Translations under genes and position numbers: made by a program
Assembly: GCA_947500135.1 (NCBI GenBank)
Contig: CANMQX010000002.1
Span: forward strand, 248,001-312,000
Source: an uncultured Paracoccaceae bacterium
GTDB taxonomy: Bacteria; Pseudomonadota; Alphaproteobacteria; Rhodobacterales; Rhodobacteraceae
Direction of reading: 5' to 3'
Length of the DNA: 64,000 nt
Notes under the pieces: generated by a model
What the model was told of the DNA's origin: nothing
Databases searched by the model: none
What the model saw: only the letters and a program-made list of their open reading frames with translations
In this document: one piece after another, positions 53,537 through 64,000 of the stretch
How the letters are laid out: every line of letters begins with the position of its first letter
How positions within the stretch are numbered: the first letter of the stretch is position 1

Positions 53537-55870
53537 TCAGGCCGACACCAACCGTTCCTGCAATTGCCCCTGCACTGTCTGGGTGAGTGCATTCAGCGAA
53601 AATGGTTTCGGCAAGAAGACCGAATTGGCGATCCGAGATTGTTCGTCGCCAAACGCGTCCTCTGCGTAACCAGACACAAAAACAACCTTGGTGTCAGGTC
53701 TTGCTTTCAACGCTTCGCGGACCCAGGTCGGGCCGTCCATACCCGGCATGATGACGTCAGTCACAAAGATGTCGACGTTTAGTTCGTCATCCTTAAGCAT
53801 CGAAAGCGCAGCCTCTGCGCAATCAGCTTCCAGCACCGTATAGCCGCGCAACCGCAGCGCGCGCGAGGCAAAGGCACGTACCGGTGCTTCATCCTCCACC
53901 AATAAGACAACGCCGTCAGCTTCGCTGCTAATCGGCTCTGGCCCTCTTACAGGTACGTCCAGCGGTTCTGCCACTGGCAGATCATAGCTTGGGAACAGCA
54001 GTGAAAACTGCGTGCCCCGATCAACTTCGCTTTCTGCAAAAATATAGCCACCGGTCTGTTTGACGATCCCGTATGCCGTGGACAGACCAAGGCCGGTCCC
54101 CTCACCTGTCCGCTTGGTTGTGTAGAAAGGCTCAAAAATCTTAGGCAGTTTTTCCGGCGGAATGCCGTGGCCCTCATCGGTGACCTTGACTACAACATAT
54201 TCGCCGGGGGGCACCACTGCCCGATCCTTGACCATCTGCGATTTCAGGATCAGATTTTCTGTCATCACCTTGATCTCACCACCCTTAGGCATCGCATCGC
54301 GTGCATTGACCACAAGGTTCATCAAGACTTGTTCCAACTGGCGTTTGTCAGCCTTGATCTGGGCCAGGGCTGGGTCATGGTTCAATGACAGGGTCACCTT
54401 TTCACCAACAAGACGGTTCAGCAGATGGGTCAGATCGGACAAGGTATCGCGTAAATCAATGATCTCGGGTTGCAGGTTCTGTTTGCGCGAATAGGCCAGA
54501 AGCTGACCCACAAGACTGGCGGCACGATTAGCATTCTGATGAATTTGGATTAGGTCGCTATAGTTCTGATCCCCCTCGTCATGACGCAATAACAAAAGGT
54601 CACAATGGCCCGAAATCGCCGTAAGCAGATTGTTGAAATCATGGGCAACGCCCCCGGCCAACTGACCGATTGCCTGCATCTTCTGACTCTGGACAAACTG
54701 GGCTTCCAATGTCTTCAGTTCAGTGACGTCATTCAGCACCGCGATCAGCCGCATATCAGTTTGATCACCCGATATATTTAGGGTCACCTGCACGAATGTA
54801 TCCTGATTTTCACTGCGCCCGCGCAAGAATTGCGAGATATTGCCGCCCCTGCCCTCTGCCGCCTCGCGCAACCAGTCATTGATCGGGCGACCCAGACCAT
54901 CCAGCAAATCCGCAACCCGTTTGCCAGTTGTGTCATCAACCCGCAAAAGCTGTCTTGCTTCCCGGTTAGAGGCGAGCACATCGCCATCAGGCGAGATTTT
55001 CATTAGGGGCACCGGCAGATCTTCAATCGCGTCCCAGCCCGCGTTGAACATACGCGGTGCTGCTGCCGCACTTTCAGGCAACAGATAGACATCCCGATCA
55101 CCATCGCGCCCATCCAGAACGGCAACCATCGCACTGACCTGCCCGGCCAACGTGCTTACGGTGTGGACCTCGCCACTGCGCAACGGAGTTTCCGTGATCA
55201 CCTCTGAAAGGGTTGCAGGGCTGGCCCCTAACATGGCGCGGGCGGCAGCATTCAACGTGGTAACATTGCCATTTGGCCGCACCGTCATCTGCGGCAGGGC
55301 GCAACCTTGGTCGGTACCCTTTTGTGCGTGTCCTGCATCACCAAGATCATCAAGCCGCCACAAGAGTTGGTCATCGCTGATCCGTGACACCGCCAAGCGG
55401 AAATGCCCCTGCCGCGTGACGATATCCTCTTTGCAAACCCCCTTTTCATTCAAGGCTGCCTGCAACCGCGACAGCAAGGCATCGGGGCTTGCCATAATCG
55501 TACCCAGAACAGATGCCATCGGCTGACCAGCAACCTCACCAAATCGGCTGGCACCAACCTTGTTGACATGGCGCACGTCGTACGTGTCATCTGTCAAAAA
55601 GGCCGCATCGGCATCCTGAGCGATCAAAGTCTGGGCGGCAAAACCTAGACCAGCGCCCCGGCGATAACCCAGATGTCGTTTCAACTGAAGGCCAATGCCG
55701 AGCAGCAGAAGAATACCGCCAGCAATCGAGAAGCCCATTCGTGGACTGGCCGACCCGACTAAAACGGCCAGCACGAAACATGGTACCGCCAACCCAACAA
55801 GAAGGTATGGTAACCGCATATACACAGGTCTGACCCCGGACGGCATTTCGAACGATTGATCAGTCGGCAC
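53537..55870 (-). CDS. cckA: hybrid sensor histidine kinase CckA
   Basis: 777 residues. Two N-terminal membrane helices (about 19-40 and 47-63) are followed by two PAS-like segments (about 80-160 and 270-385). The HisKA box GGVAHDFNNLLTAISGHCDL has phospho-acceptor His410, the ATPase has VNARDAMPKGG and GLGLSTAYGIV, and the C-terminal receiver has phospho-acceptor Asp705 (VTDVIMPGMDG). The HDFNN box and this order define CckA, the top kinase of the CckA-ChpT-CtrA phosphorelay that controls motility and, in this family, gene-transfer agents. The start is a GTG at 55870, with an ATG at 55846 as alternative. Confidence 0.94.
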   Translation of the reverse strand: MPTDQSFEMPSGVRPVYMRLPYLLVGLAVPCFVLAVLVGSASPRMGFSIAGGILLLLGIGLQLKRHLGYRRGAGLGFAAQTLIAQDADAAFLTDDTYDVRHVNKVGASRFGEVAGQPMASVLGTIMASPDALLSRLQAALNEKGVCKEDIVTRQGHFRLAVSRISDDQLLWRLDDLGDAGHAQKGTDQGCALPQMTVRPNGNVTTLNAAARAMLGASPATLSEVITETPLRSGEVHTVSTLAGQVSAMVAVLDGRDGDRDVYLLPESAAAAPRMFNAGWDAIEDLPVPLMKISPDGDVLASNREARQLLRVDDTTGKRVADLLDGLGRPINDWLREAAEGRGGNISQFLRGRSENQDTFVQVTLNISGDQTDMRLIAVLNDVTELKTLEAQFVQSQKMQAIGQLAGGVAHDFNNLLTAISGHCDLLLLRHDEGDQNYSDLIQIHQNANRAASLVGQLLAYSRKQNLQPEIIDLRDTLSDLTHLLNRLVGEKVTLSLNHDPALAQIKADKRQLEQVLMNLVVNARDAMPKGGEIKVMTENLILKSQMVKDRAVVPPGEYVVVKVTDEGHGIPPEKLPKIFEPFYTTKRTGEGTGLGLSTAYGIVKQTGGYIFAESEVDRGTQFSLLFPSYDLPVAEPLDVPVRGPEPISSEADGVVLLVEDEAPVRAFASRALRLRGYTVLEADCAEAALSMLKDDELNVDIFVTDVIMPGMDGPTWVREALKARPDTKVVFVSGYAEDAFGDEQSRIANSVFLPKPFSLNALTQTVQGQLQERLVSA

Positions 55871-55932: not shown

Positions 55933-56051
55933 GGAAGATTATCTCAATTCAAGAAACAATCCTAGGTTGCTTTATTGCGGCATGAAGATACCATTTCGAT
56001 CCGGGAAAATCAGATCGAGGATTTGGGTAAAACGTTTGGGGATTTTGGTTC

Positions 56052-56855
56052 CTATTGCGCCTTTAAAGCGTTGAATGTAAACAATGTCTCACCATCAATC
56101 GTGTAGCCATTGATCAGGGTTCTTGCCGCATCACTCGTCAACCACATCTCAAGCGATGCAGCGGCGTCTGATTTGACATGAGGATGACGGGCCGGGTTCA
56201 CGGGCAGATAGGCATATTGATTAAATAGCACCGGATCTCCGGCAAAAAGCAGGGCCAAATCCCCCTTGTTTCCAAAGTTCAGCCAACTGGCCCGGTCGGC
56301 AAGAATATAGGCGTTCAGACTTGATGCAGTGTTCAGGCTGGCGCCCATGCCTGCGCCGACAGCTTTGTACCACTCACCAAAATCGGCGGTATCATATCCT
56401 GCGGCATCCCATAGCGCGCGTTCTTTCTTATGTGTGCCGCTGTCATCTCCCCGACTGACAAATGCAGCCTCGGCCTGCGCAATAGCCGTCAGCGCATCAC
56501 CCGCCGCCCCGGCCCCACTTATCGCCGCATGATCAGAAGATGGCCCAACAATGACAAAATCATTATACATGATCTCGCGCCGGTGGGTACCGAAGCCAGC
56601 CTCAACAAAGGCTTCTTCCGCAGATTTTGAATGCACAAGGATCGCGTCAACATCGCCCGCCTCACCCAGTCGCAGCGCCTGACCGGTCCCAACAACAAGC
56701 AGTTGCACATCCAACCCAGTATCGCTTGCAATGGCAGGTAACAGAACCTCTGACAGGCCAGAATTATGAAAGCTGGTTGTGACAGCCATCTTTATGGTTT
56801 CAGCGGTGGCCGTACTTCCCAAAATCACGGCCAAAACTGCAAGTAAGCGGATCAT
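56052..56855 (-). CDS. tupA: tungstate-binding protein TupA
   Basis: 267 residues. The signal peptide is 1-18 (MIRLLAVLAVILGSTATA). The oxyanion-binding N-terminus MAVTTSFHNSGL is the TupA form of the TTTSxxNSGL motif that separates TupA from molybdate-binding ModA. Further family blocks are REIMYNDFVIVGP and FVSRGDDSGTHKKER, in which Ser, Thr, Asp and Arg contact the oxyanion. Its ATG overlaps the tupC stop (ATGA). It is the last gene of the fdh-tup unit. Confidence 0.93.
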   Translation of the reverse strand: MIRLLAVLAVILGSTATAETIKMAVTTSFHNSGLSEVLLPAIASDTGLDVQLLVVGTGQALRLGEAGDVDAILVHSKSAEEAFVEAGFGTHRREIMYNDFVIVGPSSDHAAISGAGAAGDALTAIAQAEAAFVSRGDDSGTHKKERALWDAAGYDTADFGEWYKAVGAGMGASLNTASSLNAYILADRASWLNFGNKGDLALLFAGDPVLFNQYAYLPVNPARHPHVKSDAAASLEMWLTSDAARTLINGYTIDGETLFTFNALKAQ

Positions 56856-57565
56856 TCGACGATATCTCCATTCAGGAATGCAACCGCTTCCGGGCTGGAA
56901 GGTGCTGCAAAAAACGTTTGTGCGGGGCCGTGATCGTTGATCTGGCCCCTCAACAAGAAGAGTACATCGCTGGCAAGCCGTCTGGCTTGACCTAGATCAT
57001 GCGTCGTCATGATTATGCGGGTGCCCGACCTTTGAACATCCACGAGCAGGCTTTCAATTTCTCTTATGGATCGCCCATCCAGATTTGCACACGGTTCATC
57101 CAGAAACAGCACTGCAGGGTCACGGATCAGCGCGCGCGCAAGGGCCAGTTTCTGTTTCTCGCCACCGGACAGGCGTGGCGCAGGCTGATCAAGCATCTTT
57201 GCAAGCCCGATCTTCGTGGCCCAATGTGTCACACGGTCATTCGCCTCCGCCTTACCCATGCCAGCCAGCGACAATGGAAAGATAAGGTTTTGCCGGACAG
57301 ATCGGCGCAGCATGATCGGACTTTGAAAGACATAAGCTTGCTGCTGGCGCGCGACATGTTCAGGAACGCCCCAATCGACCTGGCCCCGCGACAACCGTTC
57401 AACACCATGTAGGGTCTTTAGCAGGGTCGTCTTCCCTGCCCCGTTTGGTCCAATGACAATCGTGCAGCCATTCGGTGCCATATCATGATCAACCGGGCCA
57501 AGGATCGTTTTGCCCCGCCTTTGCACAACGACATCCTGCAATCTGGCGGCCATGTTTTCTACCAT
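56852..57565 (-). CDS. tupC: tungstate importer ATP-binding protein
   Basis: A 237-residue ABC ATPase. Walker A is VIGPNGAGKTTLLKTLHG, signature LSGGEKQKLALARALI, Walker B VLFLDEPCANLDGRS and switch MTTHDLGQARRLA. It overlaps tupB (57559-57565) and tupA (56852-56855), so the three subunits are translationally coupled. No C-terminal regulatory domain is present, so ATPase-level trans-inhibition by oxyanion is not expected. Confidence 0.92.
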   Translation of the reverse strand: MVENMAARLQDVVVQRRGKTILGPVDHDMAPNGCTIVIGPNGAGKTTLLKTLHGVERLSRGQVDWGVPEHVARQQQAYVFQSPIMLRRSVRQNLIFPLSLAGMGKAEANDRVTHWATKIGLAKMLDQPAPRLSGGEKQKLALARALIRDPAVLFLDEPCANLDGRSIREIESLLVDVQRSGTRIIMTTHDLGQARRLASDVLFLLRGQINDHGPAQTFFAAPSSPEAVAFLNGDIVE

Positions 57566-58263
57566 CTGCCTTCACGCTCCGTACGGGACAGGACGTGGAT
57601 GCCAAAATTCACGACAAGCGCCAAGCCAATCAGGACAAAGCCCAGCCCCAATGCCAGCGCGAAATCTCCCTTGCCGGTTTCAAGGGCGATGGCCGTCGTC
57701 AGCACACGGGTCGCATGGTCAATATTGCCCCCAACAATCATGATCGCGCCGACCTCACCAATCGCGCGGCCAAATCCCGCCAGTGACGCGGTCAACAGCG
57801 CGCGCCGGCCATCAAAGATCAGCGTCTTGATCCTTTGCCAATTGCTCGTGTTCAGCGAAATCAGCAGGTCATGATATTCGGCCCATAATTCGCGCATTGC
57901 CTGATGGGTGATCGATGCGATCAAGGGCGTTATGATGATCACCTGAGCAATGATCATTGCTGTCGGTGTGAACAGCAGCCCCAAAACCCCAAACGGGCCA
58001 GACCGAGACAGCAGCAAATAAACGATCAGCCCCACCACAACCGGCGGCAACCCCATCAACGCATTCAAGACAGCAATCACCGCACGACGAAACCGAAATC
58101 GGCGGATGGCCAACCATGTGCCCAACGGCAGAGCAATGACCGATGCAATCACCAACGCAGACAGGCTGACCTGAAGCGACCGCAACGTGATCTCGACCAG
58201 ATCACGGTCAAACGTCACAAGAAGCCAGAAAGCGGCCTGTAGACCGGACCAGATATCAGTCAT
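57559..58263 (-). CDS. tupB: tungstate importer permease
   Basis: A 234-residue permease with about five helices and a BPD-type coupling loop (LRSLQVSLSALVIASVIALP at the N-terminus; GVGGNIDHATRVLTTAIALE-like segment near the C-terminus). The TupB assignment rests on its short length and on the tupA-tupC context. It starts 30 bases after the 42-residue gene, so readthrough from fdh is likely. Confidence 0.92.
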   Translation of the reverse strand: MTDIWSGLQAAFWLLVTFDRDLVEITLRSLQVSLSALVIASVIALPLGTWLAIRRFRFRRAVIAVLNALMGLPPVVVGLIVYLLLSRSGPFGVLGLLFTPTAMIIAQVIIITPLIASITHQAMRELWAEYHDLLISLNTSNWQRIKTLIFDGRRALLTASLAGFGRAIGEVGAIMIVGGNIDHATRVLTTAIALETGKGDFALALGLGFVLIGLALVVNFGIHVLSRTEREGRW

Positions 58264-58293
58264 AATCGGGTAAGCCTTAGCCGCGCTGTGGCG

Positions 58294-58422
58294 TTAATTA
58301 TCGAGCCTGACAGACGCGCTTGATCCACGTTCCTGGCTGGAAAACCCGGCATTGGCCAAGATCAGATCGGCGCTCACTGCGATCAAGGCGGTTACAACAA
58401 AGGCGGCCAACATGGCTTTCAT
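58294..58422 (-). CDS. 42-residue exported peptide in the fdh-tup operon
   Basis: ATG at 58422, TAA at 58294-58296. The product (MKAMLAAFVVTALIAVSADL...) has a signal-peptide-like hydrophobic stretch (about residues 4-24) and a polar tail ending SVRLDN. GGGAGAG lies upstream at good spacing, and the WD40-cytochrome stop is one base before the ATG (TGA-A-ATG). It may be an anchored or secreted small subunit. It is not found by a length cut-off of 60 codons. The function is unknown; its position between the cytochrome and the importer suggests a role in this system. Confidence 0.6.
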   Translation of the reverse strand: MKAMLAAFVVTALIAVSADLILANAGFSSQERGSSASVRLDN

Positions 58423-58423
58423 T

Positions 58424-59722
58424 TCAGTTCTCTCCCGATGTGCCAGCATGGCGCAGGTAGTTGATCAAATCCGTACGGTCATCCTGACCGGTGATACGTT
58501 GCATCGGCATCTTGGTCCCCGGAATATAGTGATCCGGGCCTTGCGCAAACAAAGCATCAATTGTGTCATCTGACCAGACGATATCTGACCCAAGCAGCGT
58601 ATCTGAATAGGTATAATCGCTGACGGTGCCGGCCCGTCTGCCAAAAAGGTTGTGCAGGCTTGGCCCCGCCCTGCGAGCGCCGCCTTGCGTCAAGGTATGG
58701 CAGATGGAACATTTGCGTTTGAACTGTCGTTCACCGTTGCTCATGGTCTCGGGGTCACGTAGAAAACTCTGCTCCGTGCCTCCCATCTGGCCGTGTTCCT
58801 TCATAGTGTCCACGGGCCAGGAATAGACGATACTTTCAATGCCACTGGCATGGATATTCGCCCCGTCCGGTGAAAAGGCCAGCGCCCAGACCGGACCGTT
58901 CTGCGTTGCCTTGAAATCCCGGCTGATGCGCATTTCAGCCGTATCAATCACCATGATGTAGCCGTCGCCATCGCCCACGGCCAACTGACGGCCCTGCGGG
59001 TCATAGGCCAAAGCCAGAATGGGGCGCCGGTCAAGGGTGAAATCATCGATCTCTTCGCCCGTATTCAAATCAATGATCCTTGTGCCACCATCAATGGCAC
59101 CATAGGCCAGCCAGCCATCAGCCTCATTCAGGACCAACTGATTCACGCCAAAACCATGGCTCGCCAAAAGCTGCGTCTGCGCGCCGGTTTCTGTGTCCCA
59201 GGCGCGGATTGTTCCGTCGGTTGATGCGGAATAAAGCGTCAGACCATCCGCGGTGAAGGCAATATCATTCACACCCAGCTTGTGCCCGCGCAGGAACAAA
59301 GGTGCTGCATCACGGGCCGGAAATGGCCAAAGGCCAATGGTCGCATCCCAACTGGCCGACGCGACCAGCCCCGCCTCTTGCGACACGGCGAGCCCCACGA
59401 CCTTGGCCTGATGATCACCCAGAACGTCGCCATCGGCACCATCCGACCATAGCCGGACTTTGTAATCATCACCGCCGGATATCATCGTATCCTCATCCCA
59501 GAACATGACAGCGTTGACAGCGGCGGTGTGACCGTCCAGCCATGCGGGTTCCGTTCCTGCCCACAACCCAACAGCATTGTCAAAACTGCCCGTTGCAATC
59601 TGACCAGCCGGGGATACGGCAATATCCATCACCGGTCCGCCATGGCCTTTCAGGGTAAAGAATTCCTGCGCATGCACAGGCATAGCCGCCAAACACATTA
59701 CTGCAAGCGCACGCAGCCGCAT
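58424..59722 (-). CDS. Exported WD40-cytochrome c fusion
   Basis: 432 residues. The signal peptide is residues 1-18 (MRLRALAVMCLAAMPVHA). A WD40 beta-propeller of seven repeats covers about residues 20-310 (repeat marks GSFDNAVGLWAG, SGGDDYKVRLWSDG, SASWDATIGLWPF, SASTDGTIRAWDTE). A C-terminal class I cytochrome c domain has the haem motif CSICH (338-342) and distal ligand Met405 (GTKMPM). It begins exactly where the fdh cytochrome b gene ends. The product likely docks through the propeller and takes electrons from the formate dehydrogenase in the periplasm. Such fusions next to fdh genes are known in this lineage but functionally undescribed to my knowledge. Confidence 0.88.
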   Translation of the reverse strand: MRLRALAVMCLAAMPVHAQEFFTLKGHGGPVMDIAVSPAGQIATGSFDNAVGLWAGTEPAWLDGHTAAVNAVMFWDEDTMISGGDDYKVRLWSDGADGDVLGDHQAKVVGLAVSQEAGLVASASWDATIGLWPFPARDAAPLFLRGHKLGVNDIAFTADGLTLYSASTDGTIRAWDTETGAQTQLLASHGFGVNQLVLNEADGWLAYGAIDGGTRIIDLNTGEEIDDFTLDRRPILALAYDPQGRQLAVGDGDGYIMVIDTAEMRISRDFKATQNGPVWALAFSPDGANIHASGIESIVYSWPVDTMKEHGQMGGTEQSFLRDPETMSNGERQFKRKCSICHTLTQGGARRAGPSLHNLFGRRAGTVSDYTYSDTLLGSDIVWSDDTIDALFAQGPDHYIPGTKMPMQRITGQDDRTDLINYLRHAGTSGEN

Positions 59723-60925
59723 CTATTCAGCAGGCGTCGCACCATCGGGTGCGCTACCCTCTTTGGCTTTGACCTCATCCACCCAAAGGGAATGGTGTTC
59801 TTTCGCCCATTGTTCTTCGACCTGACCAGAGCCCATGGCATCGTATGCGCCTTCCATACCGACCGACCCGATATAGATATGGGCCAGAATGATTGCCATC
59901 AGGATAAAGCTGACAATGGCATGCCATAGCTGGGCAAACTGCATCTCTTCATGTGGGGCAAGATCGGTTGGCAGCGGGCCAAGGCCAAGGATATCAGAGA
60001 TGCCAAAGCTGTTCATCTTGGCAAAAGTGGCTGCGAACATATTGAGCTCAAACGGAAACAACAACGCCAAGCCGGATGCGGAGATGGAAGCCCCCAGGAT
60101 AATGACAGACCAGAAAATCAGCTTTTGACCGGCATTGAATTTCTTGGCCGGGGGATGTCCTTTGGTGAATATCCCGCCACCTTTCAACAACCAGTTGATG
60201 TCTGTCCGGTCTGGCAAGTTGTGATAGACCCACATCACAAAGATCATCACAAGGCCCAGCATAAACGCCCAGGAGACATTGTTATGTACCCATTTTGACC
60301 CGGCGGCGATGATCGCAAAGGATTCATGACCAAAAGCGGGGATCAGGAACTTACGGCCTAACAGCGAAATCAACCCAGTCAGGCCAAGAATGATGAACGA
60401 CCCCGCCAGCAACCAATGGCCAAAACGCTCTATCGCTTTGAACCGTTCAATGCGTTGGCCGGATTTTTCGCCATCAATGCGAATGCGACCACGCACAAGG
60501 AAAAATAGAAGCAAAGCACCGATCGTTCCCAGCAACAGATAGCTGCCATAGGTTGATAGCGGACCTTCGCGGAATGTCAGCCAACGCATGCCCCCGTCCT
60601 GCACCAGCACGGTGGCGGCCGGGCCATTATTCGACGCGGTGATATCGGCTTCATTAAACCGCAGACCACGCCACATTTCGGCATCGGAAACACCACCAAG
60701 TGTGCCCAGCTGACCTGTCGGATCAGCCGCACCACCCGGATCGCCGGTCGCATCACTGCGAAAGCCGTTATCAACCTCCTCGCCGCGTTGACGGGCCAGG
60801 ATGTCTTCCAGCGTTTGCGCCCCGCCTGTCTTTGACCGGTCAGGGGCTGGCGCAGGCTGCTCTTGGGCAAGCGCGGACGAAACCAGAAAAACCGATAAAA
60901 GCAGGACAAGCAATTGGCGAAACAT
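59723..60925 (-). CDS. formate dehydrogenase cytochrome b (gamma) subunit
   Basis: 400 residues. A signal peptide (1-19) and a soluble periplasmic N-terminal part of about 130 residues (with GFRSDATGDPGGAADPTGQL and the WRGLRFNEADI motif common to this FdhC subgroup) come first. A four- to five-helix membrane domain with b-haem ligands follows (IERFKAIERFGHWLLAGSFI, WVHNNVSWAFMLGLVMIFVM). It conducts electrons from the Fe-S subunit to quinone. The ATG at 60925 has GAGGAATGCC upstream. The end adjoins the WD40-cytochrome gene without a gap. Confidence 0.93.
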   Translation of the reverse strand: MFRQLLVLLLSVFLVSSALAQEQPAPAPDRSKTGGAQTLEDILARQRGEEVDNGFRSDATGDPGGAADPTGQLGTLGGVSDAEMWRGLRFNEADITASNNGPAATVLVQDGGMRWLTFREGPLSTYGSYLLLGTIGALLLFFLVRGRIRIDGEKSGQRIERFKAIERFGHWLLAGSFIILGLTGLISLLGRKFLIPAFGHESFAIIAAGSKWVHNNVSWAFMLGLVMIFVMWVYHNLPDRTDINWLLKGGGIFTKGHPPAKKFNAGQKLIFWSVIILGASISASGLALLFPFELNMFAATFAKMNSFGISDILGLGPLPTDLAPHEEMQFAQLWHAIVSFILMAIILAHIYIGSVGMEGAYDAMGSGQVEEQWAKEHHSLWVDEVKAKEGSAPDGATPAE

Positions 60926-60956
60926 GGCATTCCTCGACATATCATAGGTACAAACG

Positions 60957-60980
60957 GGGCGATCTGGAACCAGACCGCCC
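60957..60980 (-). other. Intercistronic hairpin between the fdh Fe-S and cytochrome b genes
   Basis: GGGCGATCTGG (60957-60967) pairs with CCAGACCGCCC (60970-60980), an 11-bp stem with one A-C mismatch and a very tight centre. It sits in the 87-base gap. Read on the minus strand only CGTTTG follows, so it is more likely a processing or stability element than a terminator. Confidence 0.55.
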
Positions 60981-61012
60981 ATCATTTGCATTTGTATTTA
61001 GATTAGAAAGGC

Positions 61013-61609
61013 TTAGCCGCCCTTCTGATCATAGGCTGTACCCCAGCCCCATGCACCGGAACCAAACCCACGGGCCACCACACGTTCACGGTAAATGCCC
61101 GATACGACATCACCATCACCCGCCAGCAGCGCCTTGGTCGCACACATCTCAGCACAGATGGGCAGCTTGCCCTCTGCAATGCGGTTGCGGCCGTATTTGG
61201 CGAATTCCGCAGTGGAATGTGTTTCCTCTGGGCCACCGGCGCAGAAGGTACACTTGTCCATCTTGCCGCGCGATCCGAAATTGCCCGCCTGCGGGAACTG
61301 CGGCGCGCCGAACGGGCATGCATAAAAGCAGTAACCGCAACCAATGCAGAGGTCCTTGGAGTGCAAAACCACCCCTTCCTCGTTCTGGTAAAAGCAGTCG
61401 ACCGGACAAACGGCCATGCAAGGCGCGTCTGAACAATGCATACAGGCGACCGAAATTGACCGTTCACCCGGTTTGCCGTCATTGATCGTGACAACCTTGC
61501 GGCGGTTGATGCCCCACGGCACTTCATGCTCGTTTTTACAAGCTGTGACACAGGCGTTGCATTCGATGCAGCGTTCAGCGTCTACGAGAAATTTTGCTCT
61601 AGCTCCCAT
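61013..61609 (-). CDS. formate dehydrogenase iron-sulfur (beta) subunit
   Basis: 198 residues, with sixteen Cys in four [4Fe-4S] clusters: CIECNACVTAC, CMHCSDAPCMAVC, CIGCGYCFYAC and CTFC...CAEMC. It carries electrons from the catalytic subunit to cytochrome b. The start has a GGGAG-type ribosome-binding site 13 bases after the catalytic-subunit stop. No membrane anchor is visible, in contrast to the E. coli FdnH-type. Confidence 0.95.
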   Translation of the reverse strand: MGARAKFLVDAERCIECNACVTACKNEHEVPWGINRRKVVTINDGKPGERSISVACMHCSDAPCMAVCPVDCFYQNEEGVVLHSKDLCIGCGYCFYACPFGAPQFPQAGNFGSRGKMDKCTFCAGGPEETHSTAEFAKYGRNRIAEGKLPICAEMCATKALLAGDGDVVSGIYRERVVARGFGSGAWGWGTAYDQKGG

Positions 61610-61622
61610 TTCTCATTCTCCC

Positions 61623-64000
61623 TTATGCTGACCAGATTTTGCAAAGAGTGGCTTTCGTCTCTTGCATCTGGGTCACTGAATCGTAGCCATAGGTTTGGGC
61701 GGTGTTGGTACTTTCGCCCAACACGTAAGGGTCAGCCCCTTCGGGATATTTGCTACGCAAATCCTCGCCTTCGAAATGACCGCCAAAGTGGAATGGCATG
61801 AATGCCACGCCTTCGCCGACACGTTCGGTGATCATGGCCATCACTTTGACCTTCGCACCTTCCGGGCCTTCGACCCAAACTTGCGTGCCATCCCGGACGC
61901 CAAGGTTGTTGGCGTCGCGTGTGTTGATTTCGACGAACATGTCCTGCTGAAGCTCAGCCAACCAAGGGTTGGACCGGGTTTCGTCACCACCACCTTCGTA
62001 TTCCACCAGACGTCCCGAAGTCAGGATCATCGGATAGTCTTCGCTGAAATCCTGCTTCTGGATCGAGGCATACATGGTCGGCAGACGATAGAACTTCCGG
62101 TCCTCATAGGTCGGATAATCCTCCACCAGGTCACGGCGGTTGGTATAAAGCGGCTCGCGGTGGACCGGCACAGGGTCCGGGAAGGTCCAGACAACCGCGC
62201 GGGCCTTGGCGTTACCAAATGGCGCACATTCATGCGCGATGGCAACACGCTGGATACCGCCGGACAGGTCGGTCTTCCAATTCACCTTGGCGACCTTATC
62301 GTCATAGTCCGACGGGAACGGCGACATGCCAGCCTCACCGACCTCTGCCTTATAGTCCTGGAACCCATCAACACCCGCCGCTTTCGCGATAAAGGCGCGT
62401 TCGCTATCGGTCAGTTCGGTATGCCAGCCAAGATCCTTGAGCATCTGATAAGTAAACTCGGGATATCCATCCTGAATATCAGAATCAAGCGATGCGACAC
62501 CTTCGGCCAGCAGATTGTCACCGTCCCGTTCCACGCCAAACCGAGCGCGGAATGTCAGGCCACCTTCAGAGACACGCTTTGACATGTCGTAAAGGTTGGG
62601 CGTTCCAGGGTGGTTCATCTCGGCTGTGCCCCAGCTTGGCCATGGCAGACCGTAGTAGTCGCCGTCTGCCGGACCGCCATTGGCCTGCAAGGTTGTGCGA
62701 TCAAACGTGTGCTGGTTGGCCATGTGCATCTTGATCCGCTCAGGGCTTTGGCCAGTGTAACCGATGGTCCACATGCCGCGATTGAACTCTCGGGTGATGC
62801 TTTCGACATTTGGTGTTTCGGCGTCCTCCATCTCGATATTGCGGAATAACCGATCGCCCCAGCCGAACTTATTGGCGAATTTCGCCATGATCACTTCGTC
62901 AGGCTTGGATTCAAACAGTGGTTCAACAACCCGATCACGCCATTGCAGTGACCGGTTTGATGCAGTGACAGAGCCCCGTGTCTCAAACTGCGTACAAGCG
63001 GGCAGCAGATAGACACCATCTGTCCGGTCATGCAGCACGGCAGAGACGGTGGGATAAGGGTCAACCACAACCAACATATCCAACTGCTCCATGGCCGTCT
63101 TCATTTCCTTCATCCGGGTCTGCGAATTGGGCGCGTGACCCCACAACACCATGGCACGTACCTTGTCAGGATTGTCCATGTTTTCAGGGTCTTCCAAGAC
63201 ACCGTCAATCCAGCGCGACACCGGAATACCGGTCAGGTTCTGCAATGACGTGTCCTTGCCCTCAGCATCTTTCGGACCGGGTGCGAACTGGGCTTTCAGC
63301 CAATCGCCATCCTCTTCCCAGACACGACCCCAATGCGCCCATGCCCCTGCAGACAGGCCATAATAGCCGGGCAGCGTGTGGGACAGAACCCCAAGGTCCG
63401 TTGCACCCTGCACGTTGTCGTGGCCGCGGAAGATGTTGGTGCCGCCACCGCTGGTGCCCATATTGCCAAGGGCCAGCTGCAACACGCAGTAAGCGCGGGT
63501 GTTGTTGTTACCATTGGTGTGCTGTGTACCACCCATGCACCAGATCACGGTGCCGGGACGGTTATTGGCCATCGTGCGCGCAACGCGGCGCAACTGCGAA
63601 CCGGGCGCGCCAGTGACACGTTCAACCTCTTCCGGGGTCCAACGGGCAACTTCTTCCTTGATCTGGTCCATGCCCCAAACGCGGGTGCGGATGAATTCCT
63701 GATCTTCCCAACCATTTTCAAAGATGTGCCAGAGGATACCCCAAACCAGCGCCACATCAGTGCCAGGACGGAAGCGCACAAATTCATCGGCATGGGCCGC
63801 CGTGCGGGTAAAGCGCGGATCGCACACGATCAAAGGCGCATTGTTCTGCTCTTTCGCCTTCAGAAGGTGCAGCAGCGATACGGGGTGCGCTTCGGCAGGG
63901 TTACCACCGATGATAAAGATCGCTTTGGAATTGTGAATATCATTGTAGCTGTTGGTCATGGCACCGTAGCCCCATGTATTCGCCACACCAGCCACCGTGG
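61623..64000 (-). CDS. formate dehydrogenase catalytic (alpha) subunit, N-terminus cut by window edge
   Basis: About 793 C-terminal residues of a molybdopterin oxidoreductase are visible. They include the bis-MGD-binding segments (NSKAIFIIGGNPAEAHPVSL, LIVCDPRFTRTAAHADEFVR, GNMGTSGGGTNIFRGHDNVQ) and a C-terminal DUF-type domain (LVEYEGGGDETRSNPWLAEL, VAFMPFHFGGHFEGEDLRSK). The Fe-S/Tat N-terminus and the Cys or Sec ligand lie beyond the window, so the metal ligand cannot be read. The family is the periplasmic, Tat-exported FDH type. The neighbouring tungstate importer favours tungsten. Confidence 0.94.
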   Translation of the reverse strand, partial: TVAGVANTWGYGAMTNSYNDIHNSKAIFIIGGNPAEAHPVSLLHLLKAKEQNNAPLIVCDPRFTRTAAHADEFVRFRPGTDVALVWGILWHIFENGWEDQEFIRTRVWGMDQIKEEVARWTPEEVERVTGAPGSQLRRVARTMANNRPGTVIWCMGGTQHTNGNNNTRAYCVLQLALGNMGTSGGGTNIFRGHDNVQGATDLGVLSHTLPGYYGLSAGAWAHWGRVWEEDGDWLKAQFAPGPKDAEGKDTSLQNLTGIPVSRWIDGVLEDPENMDNPDKVRAMVLWGHAPNSQTRMKEMKTAMEQLDMLVVVDPYPTVSAVLHDRTDGVYLLPACTQFETRGSVTASNRSLQWRDRVVEPLFESKPDEVIMAKFANKFGWGDRLFRNIEMEDAETPNVESITREFNRGMWTIGYTGQSPERIKMHMANQHTFDRTTLQANGGPADGDYYGLPWPSWGTAEMNHPGTPNLYDMSKRVSEGGLTFRARFGVERDGDNLLAEGVASLDSDIQDGYPEFTYQMLKDLGWHTELTDSERAFIAKAAGVDGFQDYKAEVGEAGMSPFPSDYDDKVAKVNWKTDLSGGIQRVAIAHECAPFGNAKARAVVWTFPDPVPVHREPLYTNRRDLVEDYPTYEDRKFYRLPTMYASIQKQDFSEDYPMILTSGRLVEYEGGGDETRSNPWLAELQQDMFVEINTRDANNLGVRDGTQVWVEGPEGAKVKVMAMITERVGEGVAFMPFHFGGHFEGEDLRSKYPEGADPYVLGESTNTAQTYGYDSVTQMQETKATLCKIWSA

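Follow-up and report, generated by a model that had tools for sequence, protein, structure and literature searches.

Does the gene cluster at one end of this genomic stretch join a formate dehydrogenase to its own metal supply, and what do the cytochrome and the small peptide encoded between the two contribute? The stretch (the window) is 64,000 nucleotides from an uncultured Paracoccaceae bacterium (assembly GCA_947500135.1, contig CANMQX010000002.1; G000:C2:248001-312000 in our numbering). Its last 8 kb contain eight genes, all on the minus strand by open reading frame (ORF) coordinates. They encode the alpha, Fe-S, and cytochrome b subunits of a formate dehydrogenase (FDH), a WD40-cytochrome c, a 42-residue peptide, and the permease, ATPase, and binding protein of a TupABC-type importer. 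Position p of the adjoining stretch, the 20-kb locus L002, equals window position 55999 + p. The best explanation as a whole is that an FDH3-type enzyme, its chaperones, and a tungstate importer are encoded in one unit, with the WD40-cytochrome c and the peptide as dedicated partners. We give this reading a probability of about 70%.

Gene identities were taken from Pfam and NCBIfam profile matches. fdhA is interrupted by the window end, and its 3' part lies at 61623..64000. The full gene encodes 991 amino acids and runs to the equivalent of 64598 (window-equivalent 61623-64598; L002:5624-8599). It contains three molybdopterin oxidoreductase domains (PF04879, the Fe4S4 domain; PF00384; and PF01568), a Cys ligand, and, by eye, the twin-arginine translocation (Tat) signal SVDRRAFLRG. 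It scored below the NCBIfam FDH-alpha cut-offs (TIGR01591, 474.9 against 666.25; TIGR01553, 346.7 against 814.2), and the 25 families listed for it included no FDH3-alpha model. fdhB (61013..61609) encodes the 4Fe-4S subunit and exceeds the threshold of NF038355, FDH3_beta (341.3 bits; cut-off, 240). fdhC (59723..60925) encodes a cytochrome b (gamma) with a long N-terminal extension and exceeds the threshold of TIGR01583 (132.7 bits; cut-off, 115.85). By these matches, the enzyme is an FDH3-type, Cys-ligated FDH. Selenocysteine (Sec) in the alpha subunit was ruled out, as the reading frame runs through ARICHS at the active site without a stop.

The nearest solved structure to the alpha subunit is 9vap_A (1377 bits; runner-up, 326), and the nearest to the beta subunit is 9vap_B (332 bits). 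The Cys-His active-site stretch ARICHSTTVAGVANTWGYGA is the same in the window alpha and 9vap_A, and the stretch ARICHSTTV is identical in the two. 9VAP is SoFdhAB of Shewanella oneidensis, described in a 2026 review as an oxygen-tolerant Cys-W enzyme with four clusters in FdhB (PMC13397495). It differs from the window enzyme in being reported there as a two-subunit alpha-beta enzyme. The 9vap chains gave no match to the window cytochrome b or peptide, and they were not among the best 60 of 628 matches of the WD40-cytochrome c. The likeness to 9VAP is the best available evidence for tungsten in the window FDH3, which, judged by its homology, is probably a tungsten enzyme.

The window enzyme shares the alpha, Fe-S, and cytochrome b plan of Escherichia coli FDH-N (FdnGHI) and is homologous to 1kqf chains A, B, and C (73 bits for 1kqf_C). 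It differs from FDH-N in having an active-site Cys, not Sec, a shorter beta subunit, and a long N-terminal extension on gamma. The window block also has the added cytochrome and peptide genes. Two FDH3 beta genes each, the second lower scoring, were seen in five family genomes, G006, G047, G071, G170, and G177.

The WD40-cytochrome c gene (58424..59722) encodes a signal peptide, a WD40 propeller (PF00400), and a C-terminal class I cytochrome c (PF00034, 39.1 bits; cut-off, 21.3). It has the class I signature of a CXXCH heme motif (CSICH) and a distal Met (in GTKMPM). Cys338, Cys341, His342, and Met405 are invariant across 30 aligned sequences. The structure model has 28 strands, which we take to form seven four-stranded blades. 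Its predicted local distance difference test (pLDDT) score is mostly above 90 in the propeller, and its cytochrome part is poorly modeled. Foldseek matched the propeller only, and the best of 50 listed matches were WD40 proteins. Cytochrome cd1 has an 8-bladed d1 propeller. A cd1/NirS-type propeller was rejected on the 28 strands, taken as 7 blades, and on the 50 Foldseek matches listed, none of them labeled a cd1 nitrite reductase.

Relatives of the WD40-cytochrome c were found beside FDH3. A scan confirmed 104 relatives, and 80 loci were kept. Of the 76 loci that extend at least 2 kb upstream, 74 have cytochrome b together with the WD40-cytochrome c. In the two exceptions (L070 and L075), a distant molybdopterin-enzyme match (31 to 32%) lies near the WD40-cytochrome c instead of the FDH3 cytochrome b. 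Two genome samples were also searched, a family sample of 248 genomes, each labeled as a different genus, and a class sample of 152 genomes. Only the best first-look candidates were scored. At a presence threshold of E ≤ 1e-40, the protein was found in 82 of 118 family genomes with FDH3 and in 0 of 130 without it. It lies within 8 kb of FDH3 on the same strand at 76 family loci. The class sample gave 14/21 with FDH3 and 0/131 without, with outliers in G368 (opposite strand) and G281 (86 kb away). Contig ends interrupt the beta gene of G248, the remainder of which is beside the WD40-cytochrome c and tupBCA genes. Weaker WD40 proteins adjoin FDH3 in L119, L143, L145, and L155. Among the titles and abstract starts listed by loosely scored literature searches, none dealt with a WD40-cytochrome c belonging to an FDH.

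The 42-residue peptide (58294..58422) contains one hydrophobic span. A tblastn search (E ≤ 1e-2) found it in 82 of 101 loci; some of the 101 stop short of its position. Its form is MKA(M/F), a hydrophobic span, and GFS...VRLD. A profile hidden Markov model was built from 25 members and run on two sets of loci, with E-values referring to 1723 and 1657 small ORFs. The first set comprised 20 loci fetched from the 36 FDH3 genomes without a WD40-cytochrome c at E ≤ 1e-40. The profile matched a small ORF in 17 of these 20 (E ≤ 1e-3); one of the 17, L119, has a 29% WD40-cytochrome c nearby. The second set comprised 20 loci from 19 class-level genomes, and 11 of them matched, including L146, whose sequence was already in the training set. 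Some class-level matches are on the opposite strand, beside the WD40-cytochrome c or tup genes. Reversed-sequence controls gave no match in either set.

Across the 152 whole genomes, the peptide profile matched at E ≤ 1e-3 in 10 of 21 genomes with FDH3 and in 0 of 131 without it. Two of these 10 (G000 and G342) are training sequences, and the match in G297 is on a different contig from FDH3. The 42-residue peptide is a conserved FDH3 partner and occurs beside FDH3 even where the WD40-cytochrome c is missing. A search at E ≤ 1e-3 gave 1036 homologues, of which the 120 listed contain no Pfam domain and are mostly nameless, the others being called "hypothetical" or "uncharacterized" and one "sensor domain." The peptide is most likely a small structural subunit held against cytochrome b. 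Other respiratory complexes have small subunits of a similar kind.

The importer genes follow the peptide. tupB (57559..58263) encodes the permease and matches NF038017 (260.7 bits; cut-off, 100). tupC (56852..57565) encodes the ATPase (PF00005, 93.8 bits) and sits between tupB and tupA. tupA (56052..56855) encodes the oxyanion-binding protein. TupA aligns over nearly its full length with 3muq, an uncharacterized homologue, and with 3lr1 (Geobacter) and 5my5 (Desulfovibrio alaskensis), at 217 bits each for the latter two. The site residues of the D. alaskensis TupA are given as Thr9-11, Ser12, His59, Arg118, Thr124, and Asp170 in PMC5517513. By eye in the 3lr1 alignment, the window equivalents are V25, T26, T27, S28, H75, R135 (aligned with Arg118), T141, and a conserved Asp. 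On this reading, the site keeps the equivalents of Arg118, Thr124, and His59, the Ser and the Asp, and two of the three Thr. The window TupA and TupB are homologous to proven tungstate importers and differ from the TupABC systems in their NCBIfam scores, in the Val at the first Thr, and in having their genes inside an fdh block.

The source genome also encodes a separate modABC. Its molybdopterin enzymes include narG, NuoG, an FDH alpha with a NuoG-like N-terminus (on contig C12), and one further, unassigned enzyme. It has two MoeA genes, one of which is a 698-amino-acid MobB-MoeA fusion (G000:C3:553379 region; L097). This fusion is possibly a metal-specific insertion branch. Methylobacterium extorquens is reported to have two MoeA routes, with moeA1-mobB-tupBCA on the tungsten side (PMC13197769). 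It is likewise an aerobic alphaproteobacterium with a tungstate importer clustered with genes for a tungsten-dependent FDH. Its tup genes are with cofactor-insertion genes for MeFDH1, and those of the window are with the structural genes of a membrane-type FDH3. Tungstate importers are, according to the same source, often collocated with tungsten utilization operons, and the tungsten-supply part of our finding is therefore not wholly new.

FDH3 and TupB occur together. TupB was called with NF041773 at E ≤ 1e-35, and all matches were below the family cut-off. In the family sample, FDH3 beta was found in 118/248 genomes and TupB in 166/248. TupB is present in 116 of 118 genomes with FDH3 (all but G030 and G227) and in 50 of 130 without it (Fisher p, 1.8e-27, indicative only). 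The class sample gave 20/21 (the exception is G368) and 28/131. At least 57 of 123 FDH3 loci in the family sample have tupB within 16 kb, a lower bound since TupB places were listed for 146 of the 166 genomes. These places are upstream on the same strand (28), downstream on the same strand (14), downstream on the opposite strand (11), and upstream on the opposite strand (4). The co-occurrence supports tungstate supply to FDH3.

The window gene order is one of these four arrangements. The sequence-only reading had described eight same-strand genes, nearly gapless, as one operon, and the ORF coordinates bear out the genes and their spacings. The gap between alpha and Fe-S genes is 13 bases. The gap between the Fe-S and cytochrome b genes is 87 with the cytochrome b start at 60925, and a longer ORF to 60991 reduces it to 21. 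The next gaps are 0 (cytochrome b to WD40-cytochrome c), 1 (to the peptide), and 30 (to tupB). tupB and tupC overlap (-7), as do tupC and tupA (-4). The spacing recurs elsewhere. Of the 72 loci that extend at least 4 kb downstream of the WD40-cytochrome c, 29 have tupB following on the same strand and 4 on the opposite strand. In 31 loci (the window's included), the peptide and tupB follow the WD40-cytochrome c on one strand within 2 kb. With start codons chosen by script, the gap from WD40-cytochrome c to peptide is 1 or -4 in 29/31, and that from peptide to tupB is 15 to 34 in 29/31. The spacing fits one operon, and we infer a single transcription unit from fdhA to tupA. The order from fdhA to tupA, proposed for a survey of the family, does recur there as one arrangement among several.

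A set of 20 loci was picked for upstream tup. In most of them, the upstream half reads tupBCA, a reversed DUF6505-BPL-Mrp-DUF6494 block, a small cytochrome gene, and a reversed 4Fe-4S protein gene. DUF3305, DUF3306, torD, fdhX, fdhA, fdhB, fdhC, the WD40-cytochrome c gene, and the peptide gene come next. Certain members are missing in some of these loci, and tup is on the other strand in L116 and L117. A tree built from 68 TupB rows (midpoint root, long branches, many weak forks) has two deep clades of 47 and 21 rows (support, 100/99), and both are found beside FDH3. The downstream type of the window (27 rows, 88/86) is inside the larger clade, beside two upstream-type rows (94/80). The four arrangement labels need at least 15 changes on this one tree, and strongly supported branches alone force 7 changes for the downstream same-strand label. 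The FDH-resident tupBCA has probably moved from the far end of the cluster to the operon tail in the lineage of the window, the direction being our reading of the tree. The simplest reading of the second tup type is that it attached separately in other lineages.

Several results weigh against the reading as a whole. TupA and TupB fall below their NCBIfam equivalog cut-offs (NF041772, 190.5 bits against 400; NF041773, 173.1 against 320), and the importer is therefore labeled TupABC-type. The TupB cut-off was reached in 0 of the 248 family genomes. By eye, the window TupA has Val at the first Thr position of the TTTS motif. The p-values are only indicative because the compared genomes share ancestry and scoring was limited to the best first-look candidates. 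At a looser E ≤ 0.05, the peptide profile matched 13/21 class genomes with FDH3 and 5/131 without. A consensus scan for a shared operon promoter or an internal tup promoter found 4 promoter-like sites, where shuffled sequences averaged 6.8. Terminator-like sites numbered 12 against 11.5 in shuffles, and the scan was thus no better than with shuffled sequence. The other points bear on four alternatives.

The first alternative concerns the WD40-cytochrome c, which is most likely a periplasmic electron outlet docked on FDH3. A c-type cytochrome is also the dedicated FDH partner in Desulfovibrio FdhABC3. That one is a tetraheme c (PMC13397495), and the window protein joins a WD40 propeller to a monoheme cytochrome c. 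The protein could instead serve FDH3 in assembly, docking, or heme-dependent sensing, which we hold to be possible, if doubtful. Its propeller is of the ordinary WD40 scaffold type, 36 of 118 FDH3 genomes have no match at E ≤ 1e-40, and gamma, by homology, already offers a route to quinone. Against such a role, the CXXCH and Met ligand are invariant in 30 members, as would be expected for electron transfer.

Second, the FDH could be flexible in its metal, accepting molybdenum or tungsten, with tup scavenging trace tungsten (or molybdenum) when useful. The molybdate permease ModB, used as a control, was found in 110/118 genomes with FDH3 and 110/130 without (odds, 2.5; p, 0.04). It is thus slightly enriched with FDH3 too, and molybdenum import is available to most FDH3 genomes. 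The D. alaskensis TupA also binds molybdate at nanomolar levels (PMC5517513), and Cys-Mo FDHs are listed in a table of PMC13397495. We consider this alternative unlikely. TupB tracks FDH3 far more tightly than ModB does, TupB is present in 7 of the 8 genomes that have FDH3 and no ModB match, and the nearest solved enzyme is the one reported with tungsten.

Third, the imported tungstate might mainly feed another enzyme, such as a second FDH or an aldehyde oxidoreductase, with tup beside FDH3 by chance. The FDH alpha on contig C12 could be such a user, and the 50 of 130 genomes with TupB and without FDH3 indicate that tup has other uses too. This is improbable given that tup lies inside the FDH3 cluster and that TupB is nearly always present with FDH3, a co-occurrence tested for FDH3 alone. 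Last, a lineage accident with no functional meaning is hardly credible: no tupB was placed within 40 kb in 64 of the 123 FDH3 loci (places being listed for 146 of 166 genomes), but the four arrangements, the two deep TupB clades, and the 15 changes on the tree speak against it, as does a co-occurrence that holds also where tup is unlinked.

We thus favor FDH3 with its own tungstate supply. In this proposal, a single transcription unit would make a periplasm-facing FDH3, its chaperones, and the importer. The enzyme would consist of alpha with a Cys-ligated bis-molybdopterin guanine dinucleotide (bis-MGD) metal, beta with 4Fe-4S clusters, and gamma cytochrome b. TupA would capture periplasmic tungstate, and TupBC would carry it inward. 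Tungsten would go into bis-MGD, and the enzyme would then be exported by Tat. By homology, electrons from formate would pass from alpha to beta to gamma to quinone. The peptide would act as the small structural subunit against cytochrome b and the WD40-cytochrome c as the docked periplasmic outlet. The sequence-only reading had proposed a tungsten-dependent FDH that ensures its own metal. This gains good support from the co-occurrence, the repeated linkage, most TupA site residues, and the tungsten-containing nearest solved homologue. Its suggestion that the WD40-cytochrome gives electrons to periplasmic acceptors is plausible from the class I cytochrome c and from its occurrence only with FDH3 in the samples.

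The same-strand block runs on before fdhA with genes for an FdhX-like Tat peptide, a TorD-like chaperone, DUF3306, and DUF3305. The FdhX-like peptide scored 36.2 against the TIGR02811 cut-off of 48.45; the piece scanned was 60 residues long and began just inside the start. The chaperone matches the TorD/NarJ type (PF02613, 108 bits). With these four extra codirectional genes, the unit is better termed a twelve-gene DUF3305-to-tupA block within a larger FDH3 cluster. Beyond DUF3305 are a divergent gene for a multi-[4Fe-4S] protein, a small cytochrome gene, and a DUF6494-Mrp-BPL-DUF6505 block, in which the gene named Mrp is our own reading of the ORF.

No riboswitch or other Rfam element was found in L002 at the gathering threshold. 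A 10-pair inverted repeat (L002:8611-8638) lies between fdhX and fdhA, directly before the fdhA ribosome-binding region. Folds upstream of fdhA (the first 30 of 86 regions) vary, and several show a stem near the same place with a different sequence. A CckA-like hybrid histidine kinase is encoded at 53537-55870 on the minus strand, 181 bases past tupA. It is probably outside the unit, since among 80 loci its neighborhood match was only in the two closest, L003 and L004. A regulator gene with HTH_17 and PBP_like domains, scanned on 150 residues of one member, follows the fdh block just past the WD40-cytochrome c in 7 of 80 loci (L022, L031, L033, L042, L051, L059, and L061). In L051, L059, and L061, tupACB is further on, beyond the regulator and on the opposite strand.

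A conserved cytochrome c is encoded outside the window at L002:12946-13701, about 4.9 to 5.7 kb past its end. It occupies the end of the cluster where other genera keep tupBCA. Its N-terminal part resembles TupA in a single profile comparison (probability, 94; E, 1.8e-7), over 52 columns that include the signal peptide. The domain predicted at residues 33 to 130 has a pLDDT mostly above 90. A PDB structure search with it ranked 3muq, 5my5, and 3lr1 first, second, and fifth (probabilities, 1.00, 0.97, and 0.92), with E-values of 0.05 to 0.18 and low template modeling (TM) scores; no match reached E 0.001. A Pfam and NCBIfam scan of the protein found no family. Nothing in the protein corresponds to the TupA stretch that includes the Arg118 site; a heme motif, CGRCH, comes next. 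At least 2098 homologues were found (8000 candidates scored), with no Pfam domain in the 120 listed. The N-terminal domain is likely of TupA origin.

The less expected parts of the finding are the FDH3-bound WD40-cytochrome, the microprotein, and this TupA-remnant cytochrome. A tentative and rather unlikely extension is that alphaproteobacterial FDH3 is a tungsten respiratory supercomplex, with undescribed subunits: a single-span one of about 42 residues on cytochrome b, the WD40-cytochrome c passing formate electrons straight to the cytochrome c pool, and a third cytochrome c formed from a truncated tungstate-binding protein (a TupA lobe remnant). If so, tungstate supply and formate respiration would be coupled physically as well as genetically. 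According to PMC13397495, the Shewanella relative tolerates oxygen and has served on electrodes to reduce CO2. Two or three unstudied components stand beside this type of FDH, and they could matter for producing the whole complex. Tungsten enzymes are usually linked with anaerobes and thermophiles. With FDH3 in 118 of 248 sampled genera of the family, 116 of them carrying a TupB-type permease, tungsten limitation of formate oxidation becomes a testable question.

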